Shown here: in pieces, positions 19,955 through 51,969 of the stretch
How positions within the stretch are numbered: the first letter of the stretch is position 1
Layout of the letters: every line of letters begins with the position of its first letter
NCBI RefSeq assembly: GCF_014842925.1
Contig: NZ_JACYXJ010000005.1
Coordinates: 496,001-560,000 of the forward strand
Direction: 5' to 3'
From: Roseibium polysiphoniae
GTDB taxonomy: Bacteria > Pseudomonadota > Alphaproteobacteria > Rhizobiales > Stappiaceae
DNA length: 64,000 nucleotides
Translations under genes and position numbers: made by a program
The notes under the pieces: model-generated
Told to the model about the DNA's origin: nothing
The model's database searches: none
The model's input: only the letters and a program-made list of their open reading frames with translations

Positions 19955-20836
19955 ATGGACGAGATTTTCTCAACAAAGCAGGGTCCCGACACTTTTGCCG
20001 GGAGCAACCGCGCGTTCAATCTGGATGCAGTGCGCAGTTTTGTGGCGATTTGTGAAACCGGAACATTCCGGCGCGCCGCAGCACGAGTAAACCTCTCGCC
20101 GTCGGCAGTCAGTCTGCATATCGCCAAGCTGGAGGAACAGGTTGGCGTTCGGCTGATGACCCGCGATGCACGACACATCGCCCTGACGGAGCAGGGCGAA
20201 GTGATGCTGGGCTACGGACGCAAGCTTCTGGGCGTTAACTCCGAAGCGATGGCATATTTCCGTGGGTCCTCGTTGGCCGGGCGCCTTCGATTGGTCGCAC
20301 CATTTGATCTGGGGGTGTCCCTGGTCCCAGGCCTCCTGAACAAATTGGCAGAGACGCATCCGGCAATCGTCGTTGATGTTCGGCTTGAGACGAGCGACGC
20401 CGTGCAGAGCATCTTTGCCGATGGTCAAGCGGGTGTCGCATTGTTCAATGAAGTGGAAGAACCGGGTTTGCAGGTTCGTGAGCTGGCCTCAGAACCCCTT
20501 GTATGGCTGATGAATGAGGGTGGACGGGCGATTGAGCGCTCACCGCTTCCGCTCGCTATTGCCGAAATCCGTTGCGCTTGGCGACGTGCTGCGCTGCAGG
20601 CGTTGGATGCGACCGGAATACCTTATCGTGTCGCTTATTCCAGCGATACATCCGCAGGCCAGTTGGCCGCCCTGCGTGCTGATCTCGCGGTCGCTGCTTT
20701 GCCGGTCTCCCTCGCCAAGGATGGGTTGGTTCAGGTGTCAGGCAATTATGGTCTGCCCAAGCTCCCCAAGACCCAAATCTTTTTGGCCCATGACGGTGGC
20801 GAATTGGCGCAGATACTGGCTGCCAAGGCCGTCTAA
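19955..20836 (+). CDS. LysR-family transcriptional regulator
   Basis: The 293-residue protein has an N-terminal winged helix-turn-helix at about residues 23-82 (FNLDAVRSFVAICETGTFRR, then SPSAVSLHIAKLEEQVGVRL). A LysR substrate-binding domain follows from about 105. It is transcribed away from the EamA transporter across a 69-bp gap, the usual arrangement for a regulator and its target. The inducer is unknown. The start ATG at 19955 is preceded by GAGG. Confidence 0.9.
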   Translation: MDEIFSTKQGPDTFAGSNRAFNLDAVRSFVAICETGTFRRAAARVNLSPSAVSLHIAKLEEQVGVRLMTRDARHIALTEQGEVMLGYGRKLLGVNSEAMAYFRGSSLAGRLRLVAPFDLGVSLVPGLLNKLAETHPAIVVDVRLETSDAVQSIFADGQAGVALFNEVEEPGLQVRELASEPLVWLMNEGGRAIERSPLPLAIAEIRCAWRRAALQALDATGIPYRVAYSSDTSAGQLAALRADLAVAALPVSLAKDGLVQVSGNYGLPKLPKTQIFLAHDGGELAQILAAKAV

Positions 20837-36990: not shown

Positions 36991-38592
36991 ATGGAAACAG
37001 CCTTTCTTTTCATCTTCGTCTTCGGCTTCCTGTTTTTGGGCGTGCCGATTGCCGTTTCGTTGGGGCTGTCCGCAGTCCTCTACATAGCCCTGTTCAGCCA
37101 CGACTCCATGAGTTCGGTCGCGGTGCAGCTTTTCAATGCCTCGCAGAACTTCACGCTGCTTGCGATCCCCTTCTTCATTCTGGCGTCGAGCTTCATGTCG
37201 ACCGGCGGCGTGGCGCGGCGGATCATCCGCTTCTCCATTGCGACGGTCGGTTCGATCCGTGGTGGTCTGGCGATTGCGGCGGTCTTTGCTTGCATGATGT
37301 TTGCGGCGCTGTCCGGCTCTTCTCCGGCAACCGTGGTCGCCATCGGCACCATTGCCATCGCCGGAATGCGCCAGGCCGGATATACCAAGGACTTCGCGGC
37401 AGGCGTCATCGCCAATGCCGGTACGCTTGGCATCCTGATTCCACCATCCATCGTCATGGTCGTCTATGCCGCGGCAACCAACGTCTCCGTCGGCCGCATG
37501 TTCCTGGCCGGTGTCATTCCGGGCATTTTGGCCGGTCTGATGCTGATGACCGCGATCTATATCATGGCGCGCGTCAAGAACCTGCCGGCCCAGCCATGGC
37601 CCGGTTTCAAGGAGATCTGGGGCGCGCTGGCAGAAGCAGCCGTTGGCCTCTTCCTGATGGTGATCATTCTTGGCGGTATATACGGCGGTATCTTCACACC
37701 GACGGAAGCGGCCGCTGTCGCGGCAGTCTATGCCTGTCTGATTGCACTCTTCGTCTATCGCGACATGGGTCCGCTGACGGGCATCGCCTGGATCGAGGAA
37801 AGTGATGGCGCCCTGGGGCTGACCGGCTTCAAGAGCTACCTTTACTCGATCGTCGCGGCTTTTGCCGTCTCCGGCCTGTTGGCTGCCTTCGAGGTGACGG
37901 CCAGCTTCTGGACCTTGTGGTTCTGGGTTGTCGTCGCAGCCGTGATGGTGGCCTATCCCATGCTGCGTGCCGGTCTTTCACCGGCGCAGCTGCCGGAAAC
38001 CTATGCGAGGGGCGCAGCGGCCTGGGGCCGGAACCTTGGCGTGATCGTTCTGAAGTTCTTCCCTGCGCTGTTCCATGCGGACACGAAGAAGGTCTTCTCG
38101 GACTCGGCCAAGACGACCATCATGTTGATGTTCATCATCGTCAATGCGCTGTTGTTCGCCCACACGCTGACGGCGGAACAGATCCCTCAGGTGATCACCG
38201 ACTGGATGGTCGAAGCCGGCTTCAACTGGTTCACGTTCCTGATTGCGGTCAACATCCTGCTGTTGATCGGTGGTCAGTTCATGGAGCCATCCGGCTTGCT
38301 GCTGATCGTTGCACCGGTTGTGTTCCCGATCGGCATGGAGCTGGGCGTCGATCCGATCCATCTGGGCATCATCATGGTGGTAAACATGGAAATCGGCATG
38401 ATCACACCGCCGATCGGCCTGAACCTGTTCGTGACATCGGGCATCACCGGCATGAGCCTGGTGCAGGTGGTCAAGGCCGCTGCGCCATTTGTTCTGGTGC
38501 TTCTCTTGTTCCTGGTCCTCGTCACTTATGTACCGATCCTTTCGACCTGGCTGCCTTATAGCCTGATGGGTCCGGAGATCGTCATTCAATAG
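36991..38592 (+). CDS. dctM: TRAP transporter large permease subunit, long form
   Basis: The 533-residue membrane subunit carries the TRAP DctM signatures GSSPATVVAIGTIAIAGM, ANAGTLGILIPPSIVMVVY and GGIYGGIFTPTEAAAVAAVY. It is about 100 residues longer than the usual 420-430. The extra part lies at about 255-365, between the TPTEAAA helix and IMLMFIIVNALLFAHTL, and includes two further hydrophobic segments (YSIVAAFAVSGLLAAFEV and WFWVVVAAVMVAYPML). Long forms of this kind occur in marine alphaproteobacteria. A terminator follows. Confidence 0.93.
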   Translation: METAFLFIFVFGFLFLGVPIAVSLGLSAVLYIALFSHDSMSSVAVQLFNASQNFTLLAIPFFILASSFMSTGGVARRIIRFSIATVGSIRGGLAIAAVFACMMFAALSGSSPATVVAIGTIAIAGMRQAGYTKDFAAGVIANAGTLGILIPPSIVMVVYAAATNVSVGRMFLAGVIPGILAGLMLMTAIYIMARVKNLPAQPWPGFKEIWGALAEAAVGLFLMVIILGGIYGGIFTPTEAAAVAAVYACLIALFVYRDMGPLTGIAWIEESDGALGLTGFKSYLYSIVAAFAVSGLLAAFEVTASFWTLWFWVVVAAVMVAYPMLRAGLSPAQLPETYARGAAAWGRNLGVIVLKFFPALFHADTKKVFSDSAKTTIMLMFIIVNALLFAHTLTAEQIPQVITDWMVEAGFNWFTFLIAVNILLLIGGQFMEPSGLLLIVAPVVFPIGMELGVDPIHLGIIMVVNMEIGMITPPIGLNLFVTSGITGMSLVQVVKAAAPFVLVLLLFLVLVTYVPILSTWLPYSLMGPEIVIQ

Positions 38593-38617
38593 GCGGTGTC
38601 GCGAGCGCATCTGCAAT

Positions 38618-38645
38618 AAGGCCGGGGCATTGCTCCGGCCTTTTT
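38618..38645 (+). terminator. Intrinsic terminator of dctPQM
   Basis: Ten-pair stem AAGGCCGGGG / CTCCGGCCTT (one G-T pair) with a CATTG loop, followed by TTTTT, 25 bp after the dctM stop. Confidence 0.88.
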
Positions 38646-38708
38646 CATTGAAGTCGCGCATGTTTTCATCAAGTCTCTGGCCCTGACCATGATGAGGAGG
38701 AACAGTCT

Positions 38709-39122
38709 GTGGCCCCGGAAATTGTTGAACGCTTGCCTGATCCGCAGACATATCTGGACCTGCGCGCGGCCGGTGGCCTGAGCAGCTATTCGCTGGAGGC
38801 CGCAAGGATGGGTCTTCCGAAGTCACTCCACTGCGTCGTTCTGGAGCTTGACGGCGAAGACATCGGCATGGGACGGATCGTCGGCGACGGCGCCCTCTCG
38901 GTGCAAATCGTCGACATCGTCGTTCGTCCTGAATATCACGGCAAGGGCTATGGTCGGCTGATTGTTCAGGCGCTCAGCGATTACATCGCCTCAAATATTC
39001 CCGATACCGCCTATGTGAACCTGCTCGCCGACGTGCCGGCAAACAGGCTCTACGAGAAATTCGGCTTTCGGGAAACCGCGCCCGCAACCATCGGCATGGC
39101 CTACAAGAAGGGCAGCGAATAG
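38709..39122 (+). CDS. GNAT-family N-acetyltransferase
   Basis: A 137-residue acetyltransferase with the acetyl-CoA loop of motif A in VRPEYHGKGYGRLIVQAL (Q/R-x-x-G-x-G/A) and a C-terminal LYEKFGFRET segment typical of GNAT enzymes. The substrate is unknown. The start is GTG at 38709, preceded by GAGGAGGAAC. The stop is close to that of the convergent citrate synthase gene, only two bases apart. Confidence 0.88.
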   Translation: MAPEIVERLPDPQTYLDLRAAGGLSSYSLEAARMGLPKSLHCVVLELDGEDIGMGRIVGDGALSVQIVDIVVRPEYHGKGYGRLIVQALSDYIASNIPDTAYVNLLADVPANRLYEKFGFRETAPATIGMAYKKGSE

Positions 39123-39124
39123 TT

Positions 39125-40234
39125 TCAAGCGTCAGGCTTCGGCCCGACATAACGCGAGGCAGGGCGGATCAGTTTTCCGGCCGCTTGCTGTTCCAGAACA
39201 TGAGCGCACCACCCCGGTGTCCGGCCAACTGCGAAGAGCGGTGTAAACAGGGACCGGTCGATCTCGACCGCATCCAGAAGCACGGCGGTGTAGAATTCCA
39301 CATTCGTATCCAGCGCGCGATCCGGCTTGGCTTTGGCCAGCGCTGCAAGGGCGGCGCTTTCGACGGCTTCTGCCAGAACGAGCTTCGGATTGTCCTGGGG
39401 CAGTTTCCGCAGTCCGGCTTTCAACACATCAGCCCGGGGATCACGGGTGCGGTAGACCCGGTGGCCAAAGCCCATGAGGCGCGCGCCGGAGGACAGCTCC
39501 TGTTCAATCCAGCTGTCGGCGTTGTCGGGCTGGCCCACGGCATCAAGCATGTCGAGCACCGGACCGGGCGCGCCGCCGTGAAGAGGCCCCTTCAAGGCGC
39601 CCATGGCGCCGATGACAGCATCGCGCATGTCCGCCTGGGTTGACGCGATAACTCTTGCTGCAAAGGTTGAGGCGTTAAGTCCGTGGTCGAGGATCGTAAC
39701 CAGGTAGCGGTCGACGGCCTCGACGGCATGGCCAGGCGCGGGGGTACCCAAGAGCATCCGCAGCAGATCCTCAGCGGTGCGAAGGCCGGAGTCCGGCGCA
39801 ATCGGGGAAAGTCCCTCCTTGATCCGCTGCGCTGCGGCCAAAAGAACGGGCATGGCACCCGAGATTGCCACGGCATCGGGGGTTTGTGTTTCGTGAAGCG
39901 ATAGTGCGCTCAGCCCCACGCGCATGCGTTCAAAGACTGTCAGATCCGCTGGTGCTGCCTGCATGGCCGCCACGCCCGCAAAAGCTCGAACTCTTGCCGT
40001 GCCGAACGCGCGCCGGAGATCTCCCGATGGCAGGGACACGAGATCCTGCCAAAGATGCGCAATGGCGTCTTCAAAGGAAAGGTGACCGGCGAGCGCCTCG
40101 ATGGGTTTCCCCCGCAGGAGGAGCTCGCCTTTGATACCGTCGATGTCGCTGAGAACCGTATTCGCAACGATAACGCCTTCCAGTCCGGTGGCGTTGGCGG
40201 GGGTCAGCTCGCCGTGTTTCAGGGCTTTGGTCAT
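39125..40234 (-). CDS. Citrate synthase family protein
   Basis: The 369-residue protein has the family landmarks: GPLHGGAPG with the first catalytic His, MGFGHRVYRTRDPRADVL with the second, and VGRTPGWCAHVLEQ near the C terminus. The usual catalytic Asp segment (NVDFY) reads NVEFYTAVLL, so Asp is replaced by Glu, a variant seen in some bacterial paralogues. It is shorter than the housekeeping hexameric GltA and is likely an accessory citrate or methylcitrate synthase. It diverges from an HTH-citrate synthase fusion; an inverted repeat lies between them. Start ATG 40234 with AAGGAG. Confidence 0.88.
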   Translation of the reverse strand: MTKALKHGELTPANATGLEGVIVANTVLSDIDGIKGELLLRGKPIEALAGHLSFEDAIAHLWQDLVSLPSGDLRRAFGTARVRAFAGVAAMQAAPADLTVFERMRVGLSALSLHETQTPDAVAISGAMPVLLAAAQRIKEGLSPIAPDSGLRTAEDLLRMLLGTPAPGHAVEAVDRYLVTILDHGLNASTFAARVIASTQADMRDAVIGAMGALKGPLHGGAPGPVLDMLDAVGQPDNADSWIEQELSSGARLMGFGHRVYRTRDPRADVLKAGLRKLPQDNPKLVLAEAVESAALAALAKAKPDRALDTNVEFYTAVLLDAVEIDRSLFTPLFAVGRTPGWCAHVLEQQAAGKLIRPASRYVGPKPDA

Positions 40235-40289
40235 GGGTACTGCTCCTTGATTTGGCAGCGACATAACCCGATCGTGCTTGATATCGTCA

Positions 40290-40312
40290 ATATTGATAAA
40301 TACAATCAATAT
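40290..40312. promoter_or_regulatory. Perfect inverted repeat between the two citrate synthase genes
   Basis: ATATTGAT and ATCAATAT are separated by seven bases (AAATACA) and abut the start codon of the HTH-citrate synthase gene. The 78-bp gap is AT-rich and otherwise short, so binding here could control both genes. The likely binder is the HTH-citrate synthase fusion itself (inference). Confidence 0.65.
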
Positions 40313-41494
40313 ATGTCGACGCCGATCTATCTTTCCGCTCAGGAGGCCGCTGCCGAGTTGGGCGTTCGCCCGGCAACCCTCTATGCCTATGTCAGCCGCG
40401 GGTTGATCCAGTCCGTTCCAGGGCCTGGCAAACAGAAGCGCTATGACGCTGCAGATGTGCGGCGGCTCAAGACCGGCAAGGACACCGATGAGGGGTCCGG
40501 CACGCCGGGTTTGTCGGGACACTCGGTGCTTGAAACGCGGCTGACAATGATCACAGAGGACGGCCCTCTCTATCGGGGTCTTCTCGCAACGGACCTGGCG
40601 CAGACATCGACCCTGGAAGCGGTCGCGACCCTGCTCTGGGATTGCAGCGATGATCCTTTCGCCGAAGCGCCAGACGTCAAGCTTCCTGCGGTTCCGGATG
40701 GGCTGGGCGCTGTCGACCGGTTGATGGGGGCCTATGCCGTCTGGCCTGCCTCGGATCGCGCTGCCTATACGTTGTCACCGCAGCTGTTGCGCAAGAAAGG
40801 TGCTCAGCTTCTGCGTTACGGCGTGGCGATTCTGCTGCAGACAGAGCCGCAAACAGCACCAATCCATGTCCAGTTCGCGGACGCCTGGCACATCTCGGGC
40901 GCAGGCCAGGAGGTTTTGCGTGCCGCTCTGGTCTTGGCTGCGGACCATGAACTCAACACCAGCGCTTTTGCTGTGCGCTGCGCTGCCTCGACCCGCGCAC
41001 CGCTGCATGCAGCCTTGTTGTCTGGCATCGGCGCGTTTTCCGGTCCCCGTCACGGCGCCGCCTCGGATCGCGCAAGAGCCTGGCTGGCTGAAATCTCTGA
41101 AGAGCGAGATATTGAAACCGTTCTTGGCGGACGGCTGGCAAGGGGTGAGGAACTGCCTGGCTTTGGCCACGGCATTTATACCGGCAGAGATCCGAGAGCG
41201 GACTGTCTTTTGCGGATTCTCAAAGAGTCTGCGGGCGGGCATCCCTTCGCCAGGCTCTTGCCGGAGATCGTTCAGACCGCGGACGATCTCTTCGGCGTGT
41301 GTCCCAACATCGATTTTGCCCTGGCGGCCGCGCAACGCACGTTGGGCCTGCCTGAAGACGCCGGCAAGAGCCTCTTTTGCGCAGGCAGGATTGTCGGTTG
41401 GATCGCTCATGCTCTGGAACAATATGCGACCCCGGAACAAATCAGACCTAGGGCAACCTATGTTGGTGAGCGCCCGCGGCGCGAGATAGTCTAA
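40313..41494 (+). CDS. Helix-turn-helix/citrate synthase fusion protein
   Basis: The 393-residue protein begins with a MerR-like winged helix (about 5-55: YLSAQEAAAELGVRPATLYA, SRGLIQSVPGPGKQKRYDAADVRRL). A citrate synthase domain follows from about 75. The catalytic landmarks are partly kept: GPRHGAAS, GFGHGIYTGRDPRADCL and CPNIDFALAAA, but the usual RTPGW segment reads RIVGW. This family exists in bacteria as 'citrate synthase with HTH', of unstudied role. Fusion to a DNA-binding domain and divergence from a second citrate synthase suggest a metabolite-sensing regulator, perhaps of acetyl-CoA or oxaloacetate; this is inference. Confidence 0.85.
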   Translation: MSTPIYLSAQEAAAELGVRPATLYAYVSRGLIQSVPGPGKQKRYDAADVRRLKTGKDTDEGSGTPGLSGHSVLETRLTMITEDGPLYRGLLATDLAQTSTLEAVATLLWDCSDDPFAEAPDVKLPAVPDGLGAVDRLMGAYAVWPASDRAAYTLSPQLLRKKGAQLLRYGVAILLQTEPQTAPIHVQFADAWHISGAGQEVLRAALVLAADHELNTSAFAVRCAASTRAPLHAALLSGIGAFSGPRHGAASDRARAWLAEISEERDIETVLGGRLARGEELPGFGHGIYTGRDPRADCLLRILKESAGGHPFARLLPEIVQTADDLFGVCPNIDFALAAAQRTLGLPEDAGKSLFCAGRIVGWIAHALEQYATPEQIRPRATYVGERPRREIV

Positions 41495-41542
41495 ATGGTT
41501 GCGCCATTGAATGCAGTCTCGCAGCCTGTAGGCGCTCTCAAA

Positions 41543-42325
41543 CTATTTGAACGCTCGGCGCAGGCGGGTGCTCAGCAGGTCGACGAGGGTTACAGCGCCC
41601 AGAATAACCAGGAGAATCGCGCCAACCTGGGGGTAGTCCAGGAGCCGCAACGATCCGACCAACTCCGTGCCGATACCACTGGCGCCGACCATTCCCATGA
41701 CCGTCGAAGCGCGGAAATTATACTCCCAGCGGTACATGGTGACGTCGCCGAACTGCGGGAAAACCTGCGGGAAAACCGAGGATTGGATGACTTGCAGCTT
41801 TGACGCTCCGGTCGCTTCTGCAAAGAACTTTCCCACCATACCCACGGAGTGAAGTCCCAGCGCGAGCACTCCGGGCAACATGCCGAAGCCGACCGCAGCG
41901 ACGAAAATGATACCCATGATCAACTCGGGAATGGACCGTAGGATGTTCAGGATCAGCCGGGCGATATGATAGGTCGTCGTGTTCGGTGTGGTGTTTTGCG
42001 CGGCCAGAAAGCCTAGTGGCAAAGAGAGAGCCACAGCCAGTGCCGTACCAGCGACCGACATGGCGAGAGTGTCAAGGAGCGGCGACAACCAACGCTGCCA
42101 TCGGGTGAAGTCAGGCGGAACCATTTCACCCAGAATGACACCGATTGCAGGCAGCCCTTCCGCAAGACGTGGTCCGTTCAACGTCTCGGTCAGCCACAGA
42201 CAGGCCAGAACGAACAGGGCCACAAGTCCGGTTCCAATGAGATTGCGCAACCGGGCAGATTTTTCATGAGCCAGAACGGCGTCGACGTCTTCTGAGGATC
42301 TGGAGAGTGAAGGCGATGTCGTCAT
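41543..42325 (-). CDS. Phosphonate/phosphite ABC transporter permease (PhnE/PtxC type)
   Basis: The 260-residue permease has the PhnE family coupling region PELIMGIIFVAAVGFGMLPG and the C-terminal YRWEYNFRASTVMGMVGASGIG motif. It has about six membrane helices. It is the last gene of a minus-strand operon with the binding protein and ATPase. Because the operon is divergent from a ptxD-like phosphite dehydrogenase, phosphite (PtxC role) is a more likely cargo than organophosphonate. Confidence 0.9.
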   Translation of the reverse strand: MTTSPSLSRSSEDVDAVLAHEKSARLRNLIGTGLVALFVLACLWLTETLNGPRLAEGLPAIGVILGEMVPPDFTRWQRWLSPLLDTLAMSVAGTALAVALSLPLGFLAAQNTTPNTTTYHIARLILNILRSIPELIMGIIFVAAVGFGMLPGVLALGLHSVGMVGKFFAEATGASKLQVIQSSVFPQVFPQFGDVTMYRWEYNFRASTVMGMVGASGIGTELVGSLRLLDYPQVGAILLVILGAVTLVDLLSTRLRRAFK

Positions 42326-42345
42326 GGCTGTATCCTGAAGAGGTG

Positions 42346-42371
42346 CTGAGCGGCAGTGAATGCCGGCTCAG
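42346..42371 (-). other. Hairpin between the binding-protein and permease genes of the phosphite operon
   Basis: CTGAGCGGCA pairs with TGCCGGCTCAG (one bulged G) around GTGAA. It lies 10 bp downstream of the binding-protein gene, in the 56-bp gap before the permease start, with no T tract. Confidence 0.6.
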
Positions 42372-42381
42372 AGAAATGGGA

Positions 42382-43263
42382 CTATTGGACGTTGGCGCGG
42401 ATTTCGCGAATGATGTCGTAGTCTTCATCTTTGATGGCTGCGAAACCGTCCGACTTGAACGGCTTCAGGACAGCGTCATGCGCCTCGTTGCCTTTTTCCA
42501 GGTTGTAGAAAGCTGCTTTGAGCGTTGTGATCACATCTTCGTTTAGATCGGTGCGCAGGACCCAAGGATACTGAGGGATTGGGTCGGAATAGCCTAGGAT
42601 GCGGATCTGGGCGGCATCGATCGTGCCTTTTTCGAGCATACTTTCCAGAATTGGACGGCTCAGGCCACCGACGGCTGCGTTGCCGCGCGCAACGTTGACG
42701 GCAACAGCGTCATGTGCGCCGAGAAAGTTCTGCTTGTAGTCGTCTTCGACTTTGACGCCAGCTTTTAGCAGCATGTACTTCGGCGCGAAGTGGCTGGAGG
42801 TCGATGCCTGGTCACCATAGGCCAGCTCGATGCCGGAGCCCTTGATGTCTTCGACCTTTTCGATCTGGCTGTCAGCATTTGCGATCAGAACGGACTGATA
42901 AGTGGTTGAGCCGCCTTTCAGGCGCGCCGCGAAAGGTTCGATGTCTAGGTCGCCACCCTTCATCTTGTCCTTGGCAATCGTGTAGGAAGCCGGACCGAAG
43001 TAGGCCACATCAATACGGCCAAAGCGCATGGCTTCAATCATCGAAGAGTAGTCGGTCGTAACAATCAGCTCGATTTTCTTGCCGAGAGCGTTCTCGAGGT
43101 AATCTGCAAGACCTTCATTGTTTTGAATGACGGTCGCCGCATTTTCGTCCGGCAGCAAAGCCACTTTCAGGGTGTCGGGATTGTAATCTTCGGCGCTGGC
43201 GGCAGTGAGCCCCATAGTGAGTCCGGCCAGAAGGCCGATTGCGAGACGTCGGAACATGTTCAT
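42382..43263 (-). CDS. Phosphonate/phosphite ABC transporter binding protein (PhnD/PtxB type)
   Basis: The 293-residue protein has a signal peptide (cleavage near TAASA) and the PhnD family features LKVALLPDENAATVIQNNEG, ELIVTTDYSSMIEAMRFGRIDVAYFGPASYTIA, AYGDQASTSSHFAPKYML and GAHDAVAVNVARGNAAVG. These residues coordinate a phosphonate or phosphite in the cleft. Context (divergent phosphite dehydrogenase) favours phosphite. A hairpin separates it from the downstream permease gene. Confidence 0.9.
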   Translation of the reverse strand: MNMFRRLAIGLLAGLTMGLTAASAEDYNPDTLKVALLPDENAATVIQNNEGLADYLENALGKKIELIVTTDYSSMIEAMRFGRIDVAYFGPASYTIAKDKMKGGDLDIEPFAARLKGGSTTYQSVLIANADSQIEKVEDIKGSGIELAYGDQASTSSHFAPKYMLLKAGVKVEDDYKQNFLGAHDAVAVNVARGNAAVGGLSRPILESMLEKGTIDAAQIRILGYSDPIPQYPWVLRTDLNEDVITTLKAAFYNLEKGNEAHDAVLKPFKSDGFAAIKDEDYDIIREIRANVQ

Positions 43264-43299
43264 TCCCTTCCAAAGGTTGAGTTTGCTTTGATCCCGGGG

Positions 43300-44163
43300 T
43301 CAGCTGTCCCCGTAGATTTCTCTCAAGGCAGTTTCCGACAGGTCTTGAGGCGGACCGTCGAAAACAACGCGCCCGCTGGAAAGGCCGACAATTCTGTCAG
43401 CGAAATCACGGGCGTAGTCGATCTGATGCAAGCTCAAGATGACCGGAATGGAGTCTTGACTGCAGATGTCGCGGAGAATGCTCAAAACCCGGACCGAAGA
43501 GGCCGGGTCTAGCGAGGCGACGAGCTCATCGGCCAGGATCAGTTGCGGTTGCTGGGCAAGTGCTCTGGCGATCCCGACCCGCTGCTGCTGGCCGCCGGAG
43601 AGAGAGTCGCATCTGATCAGCGCCTTCTCGAAGAGGTCGACCCGGTCAAGGCACGCGAGCGCGAGCAGGCGCTCTTCCTTGGAAAAAGGAAACAATGTCC
43701 GCAGCGTGGAATGACGGCCCATTCGGCCGGTAAGGACGTTTTGCAAGGCAGTTCGGCGGCCTATCAGCTGATGCTGCTGATAGATCATTGCCGTTTCCCT
43801 GCGGTGATCCCGAATCTTGTCTTTCGTGTCCAAGGTGCCGAGCGTCGAGGTGGCCACAGTTCCGCTGGTCCGCCGCACCAGTAGGTTGAGCGAGCGCAGA
43901 AGCGAAGATTTCCCCGCACCTGAGCGACCTAGCAGCACGGTCATCTGATCGGCATTGAACTTGAGATCAAGCGGTTCAAGGGCGATTGTTCCATTCGGAT
44001 AGGTCACGCCGACCGAACTCAGGGAAACCGCGGATTGGGACCCGGTTAGATCCTCTTTTACAGCTTTTTTCTGTATACCGTCTTCAACATATTGCCGCCT
44101 GCTTGCCAATGCGCGGCAACTTAAGCATAACGGTAGGCATTCTGCGTAACGGCGGCGTGTCAT
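43300..44163 (-). CDS. Phosphonate/phosphite ABC transporter ATP-binding protein (PhnC/PtxA type)
   Basis: The ATPase of about 287 residues has Walker A GRSGAGKSS, Q-loop YQQHQLIGRRTALQNVL, signature SLSGGQQQRVGIARALA, Walker B LILADELVASLD and switch SLHQIDYA. The start is uncertain: ATG 44163 lacks a ribosome site, and the first 40 residues, with ECLPLCLSC, do not look like this family. TTG at 44109 or 44202 are alternatives. It leads the minus-strand phosphite operon. Confidence 0.88.
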   Translation of the reverse strand: MTRRRYAECLPLCLSCRALASRRQYVEDGIQKKAVKEDLTGSQSAVSLSSVGVTYPNGTIALEPLDLKFNADQMTVLLGRSGAGKSSLLRSLNLLVRRTSGTVATSTLGTLDTKDKIRDHRRETAMIYQQHQLIGRRTALQNVLTGRMGRHSTLRTLFPFSKEERLLALACLDRVDLFEKALIRCDSLSGGQQQRVGIARALAQQPQLILADELVASLDPASSVRVLSILRDICSQDSIPVILSLHQIDYARDFADRIVGLSSGRVVFDGPPQDLSETALREIYGDS

Positions 44164-44231
44164 TTGTATGAAATCTTGAATCGTTAACTCCCAGATACGC
44201 AACTAGATGGCTGAATGGGAGAAATAGGCAG

Positions 44232-45230
44232 ATGGAATCTATTGTTTTGGCACAGCCGGTCGAGAACAACGTAGTGAACGTACTCGAACAATCTGGCGTT
44301 GTGGACATGAACCCGGGTCCAGAGCCTTTTGGTTCGGAGGAGCTCGCGCACCGCTGTCAGTCGGCTTCAGCTGTCATGGCCTTTATGACCGAGCGGATCG
44401 ATGCGGAGTTCCTGGATCGTTGCCCCGAGTTGAGAATTGTCGCTGGTGCCCTCAAGGGCTATGACAACATCGACGTTGACGCCTGTTCCAGGCGAGGTGT
44501 CGCTGTGTCCATCGTTCCGGATCTTCTAACGGACCCGACCGCTGAGCTGACCGTGGCAATGATGATCGCTTTGGCTCGGCACTCTATGCCTGCTGACCGT
44601 CATGTCCGCGCTGGTAAATTCAATGGCTGGCGACCGACCTTTTTCGGATCGTCCCTTGTCGGAGCGACCGTTGGCATCATCGGAGCGGGCAAACTTGGTC
44701 AGGCAGTCATGCGCATGCTTACAGGCTTTGGCGGCCCGCGGCTCTATCATGACGTCAAACGATTGAGTTTAGAGTAGGAAGAAGCCTATTCCGCTGAATA
44801 CGTCTCGCCTGTGGAGATATGCCGGAGGGCAGACTCCGTGGTTCTCGCACTGCCGCTAACCGCTGAAACGCAAGGCATTGTCGACGCAGAATTTCTAAAG
44901 CAGATGAGGCCTCAAGCCTACCTGATCAACACGGCAAGAGGGTCGCTGGTTGATGAAGCGGCGATCGCTGATGCACTTGAGGCCGGAACAATTGCTGGCT
45001 ACGCGGCCGATGTCTTCGAGTTTGAGGATTGGGCACGTGTCGAGCGTCCCCGGTCCATCGAGGCACGCTTGATCACGTCACCAAAGACCGTCCTGTCGCC
45101 TCATCTGGGGTCTGCCGTAACCTACATACGGCGTCAGATTACAGAATCTGCGGCGGACAGCATCATCAAAGTTCTGGCGGGTGGCCTGCCGGACACTGTG
45201 ATCAACCGGTCCTATCTGAAGGGACGCTAG
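44232..45230 (+). pseudogene. ptxD: Phosphite dehydrogenase PtxD-like, interrupted by an in-frame amber codon
   Basis: Read through one TAG at 44775-44777 (codon 182), the frame encodes 332 residues, close to the 336 of Pseudomonas stutzeri PtxD. Similarity is clear on both sides of the stop. Before it are MAFMTERIDAEFLDRCPELR, LKGYDNIDVDAC and PDLLTDPTAEL. After it are ALPLTAETQGIVDAEFL, GYAADVFEFEDWARVERPR and SPHLGSAV. The NAD motif is VGIIGAGKLG, and the catalytic Arg, Glu and His regions lie after the stop. No frame change is needed, so this is a single nonsense change (CAG to TAG is the simplest) or a sequencing error. As read, only a 181-residue N-terminal part would be made. Divergent from the phnCDE-type transporter. 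Confidence 0.85.
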
Positions 45231-46204
45231 ACCGATATACCTTCTTCCTCGATATAGGTTCGGACAATTGCCTCGAAGGAGCTGTCTGCCTTGAAGCCCA
45301 AGCTAGTAGCGCGGGCAGCATCGAACCGGCGCGGCCAGCCTCCCACGATTCGTTGAATGATCTCGTTTGGCTCCCGCCGGATCAGTTTTACACGGGCCTC
45401 ACCGCCAATCTTGCGCAAAGCCTCGATTTCTTCAGCAACCGTTGCCGCCACGCCCGGCATGGTGAGATTGCGCCGCGGGCCGATGGCTTCTCCGTCCAGC
45501 TCTGCCGCGTGGATCAGGAACGCCACCGCGGAACGCGGACTGGCCATCCAGTGAAGAACATCGTCGTCGACTGGGAGGATAGCTTCCTGGCCGTTGAGCG
45601 GTTCGCGAATGATCCCGGAAAAGAAGCTGGACGCCGCAAGATTGGCCTTGCCCGGACGCACGACAATGGTTGGCAGGCGGATGCCGATGCCGTCCATCAT
45701 GCCACGCCGCGTCAGGTCGGCCAGAAGCATCTCTCCTATTGCCTTTTGCGTGCCGTAGGAAGTCAGCGGGGTGAGGTGAAAATCATCGGGGATAGGGTCG
45801 GGAAAGGGTGCGCCGAAAACGGCAATCGAGGAGGTGTAGACCACCCGGGGACAGTAGTTATCGCCGGCTTTCCGGATCGCCTCAAACAGATGCCGCGAAC
45901 CATCCAGATTGATCCGATAGCCCTTGTCGTAGTCTGATTCTGATTCGCCCGACACGATCGCAGCCAAATGGAAGATGACATCCGGCCGATCGGAGATGAG
46001 CTTTTCGGCCGTGCCTTCGGCGGAAAAATCGCAGGCAATGGCTGACACTGGGCAGGGCGCATCCGTTGGAACATCGGGCTCGACGACGTCGACCAGCGTG
46101 AGCTTGCTGAGTTCCGTGCCGCGCAAGTGCTGGCGTGCAATCAGCGCATCCACCAGCTTGCGTCCGACCATTCCGGCCGCTCCGATTACGAGAATGCTAG
46201 TCAT
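45227..46204 (-). CDS. denD: D-erythronate dehydrogenase (SDR/epimerase family)
   Basis: The 325-residue extended SDR protein has the NAD-binding motif VIGAAGMVGRKL and the catalytic YxxxK in TSYGTQKAIGEM. It has the DenD-specific stretches GIGIRLPTIVVRPGKANLAASSFFSGIIREPL and HWMASPRSAVAFLIHAA. DenD oxidises D-erythronate (or related four-carbon acids) at C2 as the first step of four-carbon acid-sugar breakdown. Its 3' end overlaps ptxD by four bases convergently. The usual partners (otnK, otnI, otnC) are not seen in this window. Confidence 0.88.
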   Translation of the reverse strand: MTSILVIGAAGMVGRKLVDALIARQHLRGTELSKLTLVDVVEPDVPTDAPCPVSAIACDFSAEGTAEKLISDRPDVIFHLAAIVSGESESDYDKGYRINLDGSRHLFEAIRKAGDNYCPRVVYTSSIAVFGAPFPDPIPDDFHLTPLTSYGTQKAIGEMLLADLTRRGMMDGIGIRLPTIVVRPGKANLAASSFFSGIIREPLNGQEAILPVDDDVLHWMASPRSAVAFLIHAAELDGEAIGPRRNLTMPGVAATVAEEIEALRKIGGEARVKLIRREPNEIIQRIVGGWPRRFDAARATSLGFKADSSFEAIVRTYIEEEGISV

Positions 46205-46273
46205 CTGATGTGTCCCCCCGTCATTGTCGTTGGTCGACAGTAAGCGCAGGAGGATGAGTGCGCCAAGTGCAGA

Positions 46274-46735
46274 TCAGACCGATCGCGTCATGATGACCAC
46301 GTGTTTTGTGCCAATCATCTTGCGCTCGGCTTCACGGAAGCCCTTGCGGGCATACCAGTCTCGATTGCTTTGCATTTTCATGTTGGTGAAGAGGCGAACC
46401 TCTGAAAACGAGAGGTTTCTAGCCCGTGCAAGGGTGAAATCAAGCAAGCGATTGCCGAGACCCGTGCCCTGCGTGCCCGGCGAGACTGCGATGCTCCAGA
46501 GCAAGAGATGGTCATCCTCCTGCCTCAGCACGAGAGAACCTTCCGGCATGCCCCGGGGGCCGGTCATCCAGACCTCGTCCTTGTCGATGAGATCATCGTA
46601 GTCGGCGCCCATGGGCTGGGGCTTGGAGCCAATGACGTCGATCCAGTCCCGGTAGGCGCGGTTCGCCAGATCGGCGAGCGCTGGCGCATCACTTGGGCCC
46701 GCCCGTTGCATGTGCAGGGCACCTGTGCGGGTCAT
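46274..46735 (-). CDS. GNAT-family N-acetyltransferase
   Basis: The 153-residue protein shows the acetyl-CoA binding region WSIAVSPGTQGTGLGNRLLDF and the C-terminal DWYARKGFREAERKMIG segment of GNAT enzymes. The acceptor is unknown. Its start overlaps the stop of the upstream ICL/PEP-mutase-family gene in an ATGA arrangement, so the two are translationally coupled. Confidence 0.88.
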   Translation of the reverse strand: MTRTGALHMQRAGPSDAPALADLANRAYRDWIDVIGSKPQPMGADYDDLIDKDEVWMTGPRGMPEGSLVLRQEDDHLLLWSIAVSPGTQGTGLGNRLLDFTLARARNLSFSEVRLFTNMKMQSNRDWYARKGFREAERKMIGTKHVVIMTRSV

Positions 46736-47565
46736 CCTTGTCCCTTCAGGAAGGGGTCAAAGTCCGATAGCCCCACAGCCCGGTCAAAGCAGCCAAAGGT
46801 GCCGCTGTCCTTCATGTCTTCGGCTGCAGCAGTGAACGCGCCATAGGCGATCCGCGCAAGACCCGAGCCAATGGAGAGGCGGGCAACCCCCATGTCGGCC
46901 AATTCCTTGCGCGTGAGGTTGAAATGCTGCCGACCTGCGAGAATGTTCAGTGGTTTGGAAATCCGGCCAAGGACCGCTTCAATGTCGTCGTGTTTCACCA
47001 GTTCCGGCGCATAGAGACAGTCTGCACCCACCTCTGCAAAGGCATTGAGGCGTTCGATCGTCATCTCGAGGTGTTCAGGATCGGCAATCGGCGCCTCGCT
47101 TCGGGCAGTCAGCACGAAATCCGGCGCAAGCCGCTTCTTGATGTCCACGGCCGCACGGATGCGCTCCACGGCAAGCTCTTGGGAATAAAAGGGTGCGACC
47201 GGATCCGTCGAAAAATCCTCGATCGAGCACCCGCTGAGACCGGCCTCGATCGCGCCGCGAACCGTTTCGGCAACCTCGTCCGGGGTGTCGCCAAACCCGT
47301 TTTCCAGATCACCGTTGACCGGCAGGGTCGTTGCGGCAACGATTTCAGCCGCATGGGACAGCGCCATATCCCGGGTGATCAATCCTTCAGCGTCTTTCAG
47401 GCCCCGTGAGAAGGCATATCCCGCGCTGGTCGTGGCAAGCGCGTCAAAGCGAAGGCCCTCAAGGATTTGAGTTGTCCCTTTGTCGAAAGGGTTTGGCATG
47501 AGAAAGGCGCGGGTCTCTTGATGGAGAGCCATGAAACGGGCCCGCCGATCCTGTAAGGTCTGCAT
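46732..47565 (-). CDS. Isocitrate lyase/PEP mutase superfamily protein
   Basis: The 277-residue TIM-barrel protein carries family elements TTSAGYAFSRG, VNGDLENGFGD (metal-binding acidic cluster), GCSIEDFSTD and VLTARSEAPI. Such proteins cleave or form C-C bonds in 2-hydroxy or 2-oxo acids; this subgroup is uncharacterised and lacks the classical isocitrate lyase KKCGH signature. It is not a convincing phosphoenolpyruvate mutase, so its position near the phosphite genes should not be taken as phosphonate synthesis. Start ATG 47565 with AGGAGA; the frame opens further upstream at 47742. Confidence 0.85.
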   Translation of the reverse strand: MQTLQDRRARFMALHQETRAFLMPNPFDKGTTQILEGLRFDALATTSAGYAFSRGLKDAEGLITRDMALSHAAEIVAATTLPVNGDLENGFGDTPDEVAETVRGAIEAGLSGCSIEDFSTDPVAPFYSQELAVERIRAAVDIKKRLAPDFVLTARSEAPIADPEHLEMTIERLNAFAEVGADCLYAPELVKHDDIEAVLGRISKPLNILAGRQHFNLTRKELADMGVARLSIGSGLARIAYGAFTAAAEDMKDSGTFGCFDRAVGLSDFDPFLKGQG

Positions 47566-47660
47566 CGGAAGTCTCCTGAGTGCCAGTTCCTTTCGAAGAG
47601 CGAGTAGAACGCCGATGGCCGGCCTTGTCAAAACTGGCAGAACAACGGAGGCTTGAACGA

Positions 47661-47694
47661 AAAAAGCGCCAGCCCCTGAGGGACCAGCGCTTTT
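47661..47694 (-). terminator. Intrinsic terminator of the SCP2 gene
   Basis: AAAAGCGC and GCGCTTTT form the outer stem with an inner CAGCCCC/GGGACCA partial stem. On the minus strand a run of six T follows, 31 bp after the SCP2 stop. It may work weakly in both directions. Confidence 0.7.
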
Positions 47695-47725
47695 ATTGAA
47701 ATCAGACCGGTTGACCGGACGTGTC

Positions 47726-48007
47726 TCAGACGATGCTGCCAAGCTTCATGGCGACGCTCATGTCGCCATCGACCTTGAGTTTGCCGCCCATGAAGGCCGC
47801 CGTCGGGTTGAGATCACCGGCAAGCATCTCCGAAAGATCCTCGGGCGACATCGTGATGGTGCAGTCGGCATCGGCATCTTCATTGCTGACGTTCGAGCCT
47901 TGAACGAAGATCTTGCCGGTTTCGCCCAGGTCGAACTTCACACTCTCGTCGATGCCACCGCCTGCGACCTTGCCGCGGACCGTCTCGGTCAATTGTTCCA
48001 GGCTCAT
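47726..48007 (-). CDS. SCP2 sterol-binding domain protein
   Basis: The 93-residue protein is a single SCP2 domain (FDLGETGKIFVQG, CTITMSPEDLSEMLAGDLNP, AFMGGKLKVDGDMSVAMKL), a small lipid-carrier fold that binds fatty acyl or other hydrophobic ligands. Start ATG 48007 with GGAGGAA. It is a single gene with its own terminator; no pathway partner is visible. Confidence 0.92.
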   Translation of the reverse strand: MSLEQLTETVRGKVAGGGIDESVKFDLGETGKIFVQGSNVSNEDADADCTITMSPEDLSEMLAGDLNPTAAFMGGKLKVDGDMSVAMKLGSIV

Positions 48008-48136
48008 TTCATTCCTCCATAAACATTGCGGCGCCAGCAGCACCGGTTCGGGAGAGATGAAGCATGACCTTTACGTAATCGTCAAGTCAGAACCGGGCCA
48101 TTGGCTGCCTTTATCCATGCGCGGACCGAAGGACAC

Positions 48137-49936
48137 CTAGTGATTGTCACGCGGCAGACCCTTCGAGTGAGCAACGTCCTGATATTTGACAGCGGGCTTC
48201 AGCACCATGCCCTTGTCGAACTGATCCACCATGCCGCGCTGGATTTCCTGCCATGGTGTCTGGTGCTCCGCATAGGCAAAGCCCCCTTCGGCTTCGAGGG
48301 CCGAGCGCCGCTCAGCCAGTTCTGCGTCGGAGATCAGGATATTGGCGGTACCCTTGCCAAGGTCGATCCGCACCCGGTCGCCGGTCTGGATCAGGGCGAG
48401 ACCGCCCATCGCTGCGGCCTCTGGCGATGCATTGAGGATCGAGGGAGAGCCGGAGGTCCCCGACTGGCGGCCATCGCCGATGCAAGGCAGCGAATGGATG
48501 CCGCGTTTGATCAGGGCCGCCGGCGGCTGCATGTTGACGACTTCAGCCCCGCCTGGATAGCCAATCGGGCCGGTGCCGCGGATGAACAACATGCAATGTT
48601 CATCAATGTTGAGCTCGGGATTGTCGATGTTGTCGTGATAATCCTCGGGACCTTCGAAAACGATCGCGCGGCCTTCAAAGGCGTTCAGATCGTCCGGGTT
48701 CAGAAGATAGCGATCGCGGAACTCCTCGGAGATCACACTGGTTTTCATGATCGCGCTGTTGAAGAGATTGCCCTTCAGGTTGATGAACCCGGCGCTTTCC
48801 TTCAGGGGCTCGTCAAACGGCAGGATGACCTCCGCCATCTCGATCTCGACATCGCCGCAGTTGTCGCCAATGCTTTTTCCGTTGACCGTCATGGCGCCCG
48901 GATGGGGCAGCTTGCCGTGTTTCATCAATTCGCAAACGACCGCGGGAACACCGCCGGCGTGATGGTAGTCCTCGCCGAGGTATTCGCCAGCGGGCTGAAG
49001 GTTGACCATAAGGGGAATTTCGTGGCCCAGCTCCTGCCAATCGTCATTGTCGAGCGGCACACCCAGGTGGCTGGCGATCGCGTTGAGATGGATCGGGGCA
49101 TTGGTTGAGCCGCCGATTGCCGAATTCACCACGATCGCGTTTTCAAACGCCTCTCGGGTCATGATGTCGGAAGGCTTGATGTCCTGATGCACCATGTCGA
49201 CAATGCGGCGGCCGGTCTCGTAGGAGATTTGGCCACGTTCACGGTAAGGCGCTGGAATCGCGGCTGATCCGGGCAACTGCATGCCGAGCGCCTCAGCCAG
49301 GGAATTCATGGTGGTCGCTGTCCCCATGGTGTTGCAATAGCCGACAGACGGCGCCGATGAGGACACGAGGTCCATGAAGCCGTCGTAATCGATTTCACCG
49401 GCGGCCAGCATCTCGCGCGCTTTCCACACAATGGTGCCTGACCCTGTCCGTTCGCCCTTGTGCCAACCGTTGAGCATTGGTCCGACCGAAAGGGCGATGG
49501 CCGGAATGTTGACCGTTGCAGCCGCCATCAAACAGGCAGGGGTGGTCTTGTCGCAGCCAATCGTCAGCACGACACCGTCGATCGGGTAGCCGTAGAGCAG
49601 CTCGACAAGGCCCAGATAGGCAAGGTTTCTGTCCAGCGCGGCGCCGGGACGTTTGCCGGTTTCCTGGATCGGGTGCACGGGAAATTCAAAGCAGATGCCA
49701 CCGGCCTCGCGAATGCCCTCGCGCACGCGCTTGGCAAGCTCGATGTGATGGCGATTGCAGGGCGAAAGATCTGAGCCGGTCTGCGCGATTCCGATGATCG
49801 GCTTGCCGGATTGAAGTTCCTCACGGGTCAGGCCGAAGTTGAGATAGCGTTCGATGTAAAGCGCCGTCATGCCCGGGTTATCCGGATTGTCGAACCAGGC
49901 AGTTGATCGCAACTTGGGTGTCTTCTTGCTGGACAT
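48137..49936 (-). CDS. IlvD/Edd-family sugar-acid dehydratase (L-arabonate/D-xylonate type)
   Basis: The 599-residue dehydratase contains the iron-sulfur cysteine motifs of the IlvD/Edd family ([25 protein letters not shown] and [21 protein letters not shown]). It has the C-terminal GGRQSG-like segment [20 protein letters not shown]. The pattern is closer to pentonate (arabonate/xylonate) dehydratases than to dihydroxyacid dehydratase. These enzymes turn a sugar acid into a 2-keto-3-deoxy acid. No transporter or aldolase for the pathway is adjacent. An inverted repeat lies about 100 bp upstream. Confidence 0.85.
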
Positions 49937-50034
49937 GAGTTTCTCCCCCTCAGGACTTTTGCGGCGCAGTTGAATTTGAACCGATTAACACCACCGACCC
50001 CAACGTCTGTAAAGTCGCGATTGCATCAAAGTGG

Positions 50035-50054
50035 TTCGATTGTCGAAATACAAT
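50035..50054. promoter_or_regulatory. Overlapping inverted repeats upstream of the sugar-acid dehydratase
   Basis: TTCGA-TTG-TCGAA (50035-50047) overlaps ATTGT-N6-ACAAT (50039-50054). They lie in the 122-bp gap before the dehydratase gene and look like the binding site of a dimeric GntR- or IclR-type regulator; the regulator is not in the window. Confidence 0.5.
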
Positions 50055-50058
50055 TGCT

Positions 50059-51600
50059 TCAGAACTTCAGCCGGTTCGCAAGTTTGTCGGCGATGAGCCA
50101 GGATCCCAAGAGTCCGACGACAAACACAATTGGCGCCGCGGTACCAGGCATAAGTGCGGCGGCACCCAGAAGGCCCGCAAGCGTTCGCAGGACAAGGTTA
50201 AAGCCGCGCACCAGGCGTGTTTGCTCGTCCATTCTCGAGGCCATGGTCAAAAGGTCGGCAAGGGCTTCGAGCTGCCCCTCGGGCAGGGTTGCCAGCAGAA
50301 CGGCCTCGCTCCTTGTTTCCGAAGACAGGGCAAAAACACCGCGCCGGTCGCTCGCCCCGATCCCGACATAGAGCCCCTCTGCCTGGGAGAACCTGGATTG
50401 TGCGACCGCGAACCGATCTCTTTGCCTGATGTCGTCGGTCACACTGCCAATCTCGAGATTTGTAGCGACCGCCTCCGCCGTTTGAAGATGGGCTCCCGTG
50501 ACGAGGAGGCTTTCGACGCCCATCTGCTTGAGGCGCTTAATAAGATCATGTGCTTGCGGATGTAGCGTGCCCTGAAGACCGAGAATGCCGACAGCCCGCT
50601 CGCCGACCGAGACAATCACACAGGTCTTTCCGGCAGCCTGAAGCGGCTTGCAGAGCGAGTTGGCCATGAAACAGTCGACCTTCAGCTGCGCCATGAGAGC
50701 CGTGTTGCCAACTGCAACGGATCTGCCGTTGATCAGGGCGACGGCCCCGAGGCCCGAAACCTCTTCCCACTCATCTGGCGCGTTCCGGGGCAGGGACCAG
50801 TCCTCCGAAATGGAGCGGATGGCGGCGCCGATCGGATGTCTTGCATAGCGTTCCGTGGTGGCGGCGACGGCGAGCAGGCGCTCCGACCCCTTGTCGAAGG
50901 CGTGGACATCTGTGACGACACACTGGTCGTCCGCAAGTAATGTTGGATTGTCAAAGGCAACGGCGGTGCTGGCGGCAATGGCCGTGAGTGCATCCACCCC
51001 ATTCAACTCGACACCGATGTCTTGCGCTTTTCGAACGCCAATGTGCAGCATCAGGGCCTTTGTGAACTCCGGCGCGTAGGGCCATGCAAGGGCAAGCGCT
51101 GCTGTTCCGGCTGTCAAACCGTCAAAGGGACCTGAGAAGACCCACCAGCCAATCAGACTGACGAGGGCAAGGGTAAGCGCGCCATAGGCTTGCCGCAGCG
51201 CCGACATCTCATCTTGGTCAGCGGTATCGGGGAACCTCTGGCGTGCTGCATTTGCAAGCGCGCGCCCACTTGCAAGACAGACGGCGCTGAAGAGTGGGTT
51301 GATGATCTGCTCTGGATCGGTGCCACTCAGGTAGAACGCTCCGGCGGCTGCAAGACTGAGGGTCGTAACCGCAAGACTTGCCACGTCCAGTTTGCGGCGC
51401 AAGTCGCCCGCTATTTGCCAAGCCAGAAGACCGGCTCCACTGGCGAGGGCCACGATCAGAGAGATCAGCTCTATCGTTGCGCCCGGCAAGAGCGGGCCGC
51501 GGATTGCCGAAAGGACGGTTAGGATGAGGGAGAGGGCAAAAAGCAGGGCGCATGCGCCAGTCAGCAGACGAGAGAGCACGTTGAAACGTATCGCGGTCAT
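50059..51600 (-). CDS. Degenerate P1B-type ATPase (pseudoenzyme)
   Basis: The roughly 513-residue protein follows the second half of a heavy-metal P-type ATPase, but every catalytic signature is changed. The membrane CPC motif is WPY (about 173-175). The phosphorylation motif DKTGTLT is DNPTLLA (D at about 217). TGD is TGA (about 368-370), and GDGxND is GIGASD (about 413-418). The HP motif of the nucleotide domain is kept (RYARHPIGAAI, about 254-262). Several hydrophobic segments remain, with shortened N-terminal helices and no metal-binding domain. The frame is intact, so it is a maintained pseudoenzyme, not a decayed gene. Start ATG 51600; ATG 51672 is an alternative. Confidence 0.75.
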   Translation of the reverse strand: MTAIRFNVLSRLLTGACALLFALSLILTVLSAIRGPLLPGATIELISLIVALASGAGLLAWQIAGDLRRKLDVASLAVTTLSLAAAGAFYLSGTDPEQIINPLFSAVCLASGRALANAARQRFPDTADQDEMSALRQAYGALTLALVSLIGWWVFSGPFDGLTAGTAALALAWPYAPEFTKALMLHIGVRKAQDIGVELNGVDALTAIAASTAVAFDNPTLLADDQCVVTDVHAFDKGSERLLAVAATTERYARHPIGAAIRSISEDWSLPRNAPDEWEEVSGLGAVALINGRSVAVGNTALMAQLKVDCFMANSLCKPLQAAGKTCVIVSVGERAVGILGLQGTLHPQAHDLIKRLKQMGVESLLVTGAHLQTAEAVATNLEIGSVTDDIRQRDRFAVAQSRFSQAEGLYVGIGASDRRGVFALSSETRSEAVLLATLPEGQLEALADLLTMASRMDEQTRLVRGFNLVLRTLAGLLGAAALMPGTAAPIVFVVGLLGSWLIADKLANRLKF

Positions 51601-51969
51601 CAAAGAGGCCTGAAATGGGAAATCGGAGTCAGGAAGCAGACTCGGGCTGCGCACATTACGGGAGAACAGCATTGCTGTCGTCCGTCCCGCACGTCGATCA
51701 ACAGGCAGGATCTGTCAAGAATGAGGCACGGTGGAGTCGATTTTGGCGATCAAAAAAAGGAATTGAATAAAATGAAGGCAATTATGGGTTTTAAACCATG
51801 TCAAAAGTTGCTATTCTTACCCTACGGAATTTGAGTTGATCCGCGATATTTAGGGATTGAAACATTATATTCTGTGTTGTTTTTTGAGTATTTCAGACAG
51901 GAGGGGGCTTGCCCCCTCCTTTTTTTGTCGTGTCGGCATCGGGCGGCACTTCGGCCACTTCAAGAAAGG
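51601..51969. other. AT-rich gene-free stretch with a possible small transcript
   Basis: The 369-bp gap separates two minus-strand genes. Bases 51750-51900 are markedly AT-rich. A 20-codon open frame starts at ATG 51771 (MKAIMGFKPCQ...) with AAGGA eleven bases upstream; I do not call it a gene. A strong + strand terminator ends the stretch, although no + strand gene precedes it, so a small RNA or tiny peptide gene is possible. Confidence 0.5.
51899..51927 (+). terminator. Orphan intrinsic terminator on the + strand
   Basis: Perfect ten-pair stem AGGAGGGGGC / GCCCCCTCCT with a two-base loop, followed by a run of T. Both flanking genes are on the minus strand and the minus strand has no T tract after the hairpin, so it must end an unannotated + transcript. 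Confidence 0.8.

Follow-up and report, generated by a model that had tools for sequence, protein, structure and literature searches.

The closest described counterparts of the locus analysed here are the ptxABCDE modules of the Pseudomonas stutzeri WM88 type, and the tabulated part of a report on Acinetobacter plasmids lists further ptx modules as 'ABCDE-delta' and 'B-delta-CDE', that is, as incomplete ones (PMC10117892). The window, by which we mean the whole 64,000-nucleotide stretch of Roseibium polysiphoniae DNA, carries the same four kinds of gene as the WM88-type module, its PtxD being most similar to phosphite dehydrogenases of solved structure and its PtxB to solved PtxB proteins, yet differs from it in an amber codon within ptxD, a ptxC without the coupling motif, an altered ptxA and the lack of ptxE. 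Its layout is divergent, with ptxA-ptxB-ptxC on the minus strand and ptxD on the plus strand; plasmids of Labrenzia sp. THAF35 and Sulfitobacter pontiacus have the same annotated order, with the LysR gene ptxE coming next. We consider it highly probable that a ptxABCD phosphite-use module was gained after the split from the nearest relative compared and is now losing its function, and the amber codon is best read as one lesion of this decaying module rather than as programmed read-through.

The ptxD frame runs on the plus strand from ATG 44232 to TAG 45228-45230, a length of 332 codons with one internal in-frame TAG, after which the same frame is open again:

44232..45230, plus strand: ptxD (phosphite dehydrogenase), interrupted; from the reading frame and PDB sequence matches
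44775..44777, plus strand: in-frame TAG (codon 182 of 332), located in a hypervariable stretch that follows the Gly-rich NAD-binding motif
44811..45230, plus strand: longest ORF beyond the TAG that opens with a usual start (GTG; 139 codons)

The TAG is placed relative to the putative NAD-binding fold by means of the Gly-rich motif. Read through the TAG, PtxD aligns without gaps to phosphite (phosphonate) dehydrogenase chains (query residues 5-326 against 9-330 of 9pr0, E 1.5e-93). The best 14 PDB sequences all carry the name phosphite or phosphonate dehydrogenase (E 1.5e-93 to 4e-90), the next group being glyoxylate reductase at E 1.6e-62; by sequence, PtxD is closer to phosphite dehydrogenases than to the rest of the 2-hydroxyacid dehydrogenases. 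When the two halves are taken separately, each matches NCBIfam models for 2-hydroxyacid dehydrogenases, in no case reaching the curated cut-off. An earlier note on this DNA had described ptxD as broken by a single in-frame amber codon, with no frame shift and no missing residues; the gap-free alignment agrees with that description, and the gene shows no other clear lesion. The 150 codons past the TAG remain open in 6 of 2000 mononucleotide shuffles, and the homology is stronger evidence than this shuffle test that the ptxD frame continues.

We take the catalytic and substrate residues of P. stutzeri PtxD to be Lys76, Arg237, Glu266, His292, Arg301, Trp134 and Met53. By the numbering of the gap-free alignment, the frame encodes Lys75, Arg236, Glu265, His291, Arg300, Trp133 and Met52, with Arg236 equivalent to Arg237, Glu265 to Glu266 and His291 to His292; Phe138, Asp174 and Val175 stand at places presumably occupied by Tyr139, Glu175 and Ala176. 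Lys75 is encoded before the TAG, and Arg236, Glu265, His291 and Arg300 after it. A complete PtxD enzyme is thus predicted not to be translated, the TAG at codon 182 lying ahead of Arg236, Glu265 and His291. The 181-residue product would be inactive, and the 139-codon GTG ORF, which lacks the first 193 residues, is not expected to act alone. A second PtxD elsewhere in the same genome was considered and rejected, the next-best match being only 35% identical. Among the viral contigs searched, no PtxD relatives on phages were found.

At codon 182, the alignment column of 91 relatives holds a gap in 36, Thr in 12 and Gln in two, and is hypervariable; one of the gapped relatives (L024) is gapped since its own frame ends earlier. 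The ancestral residue cannot be inferred from such a column, and the CAG-to-TAG origin put forward in the earlier note finds no support. L024 itself, from Alphaproteobacteria bin24 (contig coverage 1.24 by title), is a second ptxD with an in-frame TAG, at codon 161 (5466-5468), which probably reflects either a sequencing error or decay of that copy as well. At the other end of the gene, ptxD and denD share the CTAG at 45227-45230; the sister genome has the same CTAG at its denD end, so the host side of the junction seems to have supplied the ptxD stop.

The three transporter genes score above curated cut-offs, ptxA with TIGR02315 (PhnC), ptxB with TIGR01098 (the phosphate/phosphite/phosphonate-binding family) and ptxC with TIGR01097 (PhnE):

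41543..42325, minus strand: ptxC (phnE-type permease), 260 residues, lacking 14 residues including the EAA motif; from TIGR01097, alignments and predicted structure
41813..41818, minus strand: site of the 42-base in-frame ptxC deletion, near residues 170-171; placed by hand, with alignment play of about one residue
42382..43263, minus strand: ptxB (phosphite-binding protein, PtxB type), looks intact; from PDB PtxB chains, with 2 of 62 conserved sites changed
43300..44202, minus strand: ptxA (phnC-type ATPase), longest ORF, from TTG 44202; TIGR02315 above cut-off
43522..43524, minus strand: Leu codon of ptxA at the conserved Pro position following the Walker B Asp-Glu (A-D-E-L for A-D-E-P); placed by hand
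44087..44095, plus strand: ACATATTGC, possible remnant of the motif TATTACATATTGCGAT; by eye, weak evidence

The permease EAA/coupling motif, expected of a ptxABCD module, is absent from the window's PtxC. In the DppBCDF importer, according to PMC12136057, this motif is the helix that couples the permease to the ATPase. None of 83 other PhnE/PtxC loci (79 distinct sequences) has a gap in those 14 columns; these loci include five other PhnE loci of the same genome, which has six other PhnE matches over the cut-off, the sixth without a locus in the alignment. A Glu within the lost stretch is invariant in all 32 intact relatives. In the L216 homologue the stretch lost in the window is flanked by two copies of GCCGAAGCC, which suggests that the deletion arose between short direct repeats. 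AlphaFold models, built from alignments that shared 31 further relatives, point the same way: an intact relative (L085) reaches a mean pLDDT of 92.8 and has a short helix at 177-185, while the window's PtxC reaches 73.3 and the helix is absent. A search by sequence for a solved structure of PtxC found none.

In PtxA, three of 61 conserved sites are changed, namely the Walker-B Pro-to-Leu and two mild ones, and in PtxC the count is 4 of 75; most relatives depart less than these two proteins do. Beyond the EAA deletion and the Pro-to-Leu change these counts do not prove decay, because 5 of 66 and 6 of 69 relatives, respectively, reach the same rates. By sequence, ptxA is also without a usual start at the homologous place. 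The annotated starts in L146 and L147 lie 24 and 17 codons ahead of the conserved Y-P-N-G, and the usual starts nearest to it in the window lie 2 codons (GTG 44007) and 36 codons (TTG 44109) upstream; apart from the TTG that opens the longest ORF, ATG 44163 is the other in-frame candidate. Upstream of ptxD in four loci (L009, L085, L146 and L147) the motif TATTACATATTGCGAT was seen by eye, and there is weak evidence that this shared promoter motif survives in the window only as ACATATTGC, inside the longest ptxA ORF.

PtxB, by comparison with the PDB, matches two chains named PtxB, 5o2j (E 7.8e-81) and 5lv1 (E 6.8e-76), and one named phosphonate-binding in the table, 5jvb (E 2.7e-81), the next group following at 3.6e-20 or weaker. 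A PtxB-type binding protein is thus present beside ptxD; the stricter PhnD model TIGR03431 stays below its cut-off. The rate of change at its conserved sites is reached by 11 of 67 relatives.

That ptxB is intact and of the phosphite type, and that ptxA and ptxC are open frames, would be expected if just oxidation had been lost and PtxABC still imported phosphite or another ligand. We regard this as very improbable, given that PtxC lacks the helix joining permease and ATPase and the PtxA ATPase carries the Walker-B change. Phosphite uptake without oxidation, which the earlier note had foreseen as the consequence of the amber codon, is unlikely because the pump looks damaged too, in the loss from PtxC and at conserved sites of PtxA. 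On the reading of a decaying module, neither uptake nor oxidation of phosphite would work through it.

The same transporter damage bears on whether ptxD is in fact intact and the amber codon arose from faulty sequencing or assembly. Such an error would fit a single-base change in an otherwise constrained-looking gene known from one assembly, and the different TAG in the low-coverage L024 contig indicates that errors of this kind may occur in public data. Yet the genome lies in 12 contigs and is 99.87% complete, and all 11 flanking genes match the sister genome at full or nearly full length, with no stop in the window's copy and no uncompensated frame break; two of the genes have 1-base gaps in pairs that compensate each other, and the alignment shows a 2-base gap at the very end of denD. 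In the sister genome, three window ORFs contain a stop, at codons 8, 22 and 24; the probable cause is that the mechanical ORF starts were set too far upstream. A base-call error would also leave the separate 42-base ptxC deletion unexplained. Because ptxC carries this separate damage, a truly decaying module is more likely than an error, which we hold to be improbable. An internal-stop count over 18 genes was rejected as a test of assembly quality, the other 17 having been picked from a list of open frames.

Outside the stop, PtxD is near-normally conserved: 2 of 53 conserved sites are changed, both mildly, and 18 of 81 intact relatives show at least that rate. The loss consequently looks recent when set against the age of the gene family, and the same conservation fits a one-base sequencing error as well. 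Branch lengths, calculated from just the nearest loci plus at most 11 chosen outgroups, are within the range of relatives for PtxD (0.638 against 0.495-0.644) and PtxB (0.333 against 0.327-0.375); PtxA is the shortest of its group (0.431 against 0.484-0.783) and PtxC the longest (0.416 against 0.216-0.403). An attempt to date the loss by relaxed constraint yielded no age, since neither conserved-site counts nor branch lengths show general erosion. The conserved-site counts leave out, for ptxD, L024, L071, L084 (cut or short), L089, L093-L095 and identical sequences and, for ptxA, ptxB and ptxC, L010, L060, L140-L145, L148, L218, L219, proteins of fewer than 230 residues and identical sequences.

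A further possibility is that low-level or regulated amber read-through yields enough full-length PtxD, with the stop acting as a switch. The hypervariable stretch in which the stop lies, gapped in 36 of the 91 relatives, means that almost any inserted residue may be tolerated, and the downstream half of PtxD is conserved. Against this, RF1 is encoded in the genome, the transporter partner is damaged and none of the 91 relatives has a stop at codon 182, a comparison for which the earlier note had called. It had also proposed a search for an amber suppressor tRNA; ARAGORN found no CTA, TCA or TTA anticodon in 42 tRNA loci, and we reject a suppressor tRNA on this survey, which is incomplete in that it contains no tRNA-Ile. 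The input consisted of 30 tRNA loci and 12 further stretches and gave 46 gene calls, the excess probably being neighbours in the flanks; with tRNA-Ile missing from the list, either the assembly or the search must be incomplete. PylS-based recoding is likewise rejected, the genome's single match scoring 20.2 bits against a cut-off of 178.15; 13 of 14 control genomes also give a match, just one of them over the cut-off. TAG terminates nine of 18 ORFs picked around the locus, among them ptxB, ptxC, denD and ptxD. We therefore see no support for the earlier note's suggestion of read-through as a regulatory device, and consider such a switch highly unlikely. We give almost no credence to a more elaborate version, in which the amber codon lies in a tolerant stretch between domains, low-rate read-through that depends on conditions yields a little PtxD, and a relaxed or re-partnered PtxABC provides the ligand. 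On our preferred reading of decay, translation would simply end at codon 182 via RF1.

That the module was gained is seen from its surroundings:

40055..41494, plus strand: citrate-synthase-like gene, left flank
41495..45226, no strand assigned: approximate limits of the putatively gained ptx island, between the citrate-synthase-like stop (41494) and the denD stop (45227-45229)
45227..46204, minus strand: denD-type D-erythronate dehydrogenase, right flank; NF043036 above cut-off

In the nearest relative compared (G028) the flanks are colinear, with DNA identities of 95.5% and 92.5%; similarity ends at window position 41477 and resumes at 45241, and the citrate-synthase-like and denD matches are 39 bases apart, against 3738 in the window. 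The spacing of those two matches is -1 to 42 bases in seven same-genus relatives, G028 included; in the other 37 same-genus genomes the matches, judged by eye, are not adjacent or one of them is lacking. At E 1e-60 no ptxD match is found in G028, and four of 44 other same-genus genomes have a ptxD-like gene, stop-free and 43-53% identical. The simplest reading of these comparisons is that the module was gained in the window's lineage after its split from G028, in which case ptxABCD would have been inserted between the citrate-synthase-like gene and denD. The GC content of the island is slightly lower than that of the flanks (0.546-0.586 against 0.573-0.621). No transposase ORF or target duplication was seen by eye at the junctions, in the ORF list and the sister alignment.

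Several features of these surroundings, and of ptx modules elsewhere, were seen along the way. Two citrate-synthase-like ORFs at 39125-41494 overlap in head-to-head orientation, and the plus-strand one has an N-terminal helix-turn-helix-like stretch (by eye); this plus-strand gene and denD are neighbours in seven same-genus genomes. A Labrenzia plasmid (L146) carries a ptx module with ptxE beside a Tn3-family transposase; with little change the module is also present in two genomes from the same family as the window (L216 and L217), the ptxE of L146 and L217 being 100% and 98% identical to that of L216; it is a mobile phosphite module. In the plasmid collection searched, 703 records encode a PtxD-like protein matching at E 1e-50 or better, and Klebsiella accounts for 576 of these.

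The regulator gene ptxE had no match at E 1e-8 in window positions 38001-52000, and in the whole genome the best match by E-value is just 29% identical; elsewhere in the window, near 20015-20275, there is a single LysR match, which is weak and partial. All six loci closest by PtxB and PtxC (L009, L085, L146, L147, L216 and L217) carry ptxE. Among the 82 loci with room to see it, ptxE adjoins ptxD in 37; because the other 45, L028 (PtxD 53.7% identical) among them, are also without it, its absence from the window may be taken as supportive of decay and not as damage in itself, nor as proof.

The genome encodes PhnJ of C-P lyase (G000:C8:207119-207934) and further PhnE proteins, which may leave it other routes to reduced phosphorus. 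Surveys based on the presence of ptxD or phnCDE would call this genome phosphite-competent although enzyme and pump look broken. The locus also offers a snapshot of a phosphite module being gained and lost within a single genus, the site being empty in the nearest relative compared.

In the part of the literature covered, we found no published description of a naturally broken ptxD at the nucleotide level. As a kind, incomplete ptx modules are already known, since they are reported in the tabulated part of the work on Acinetobacter plasmids (PMC10117892), and the present locus is most likely a case of ordinary gene decay with no new regulation. The Acinetobacter modules, as tabled there, are plasmid copies with incomplete genes, whereas the window has a nonsense codon and an in-frame deletion and lies on a large contig (PMC10117892). 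Known mechanisms are left unchanged by the finding. Ordinary bacterial pseudogenes in gained modules are marked by gain relative to near relatives and by several separate lesions; the window is like them, and differs in nothing but the genes involved.
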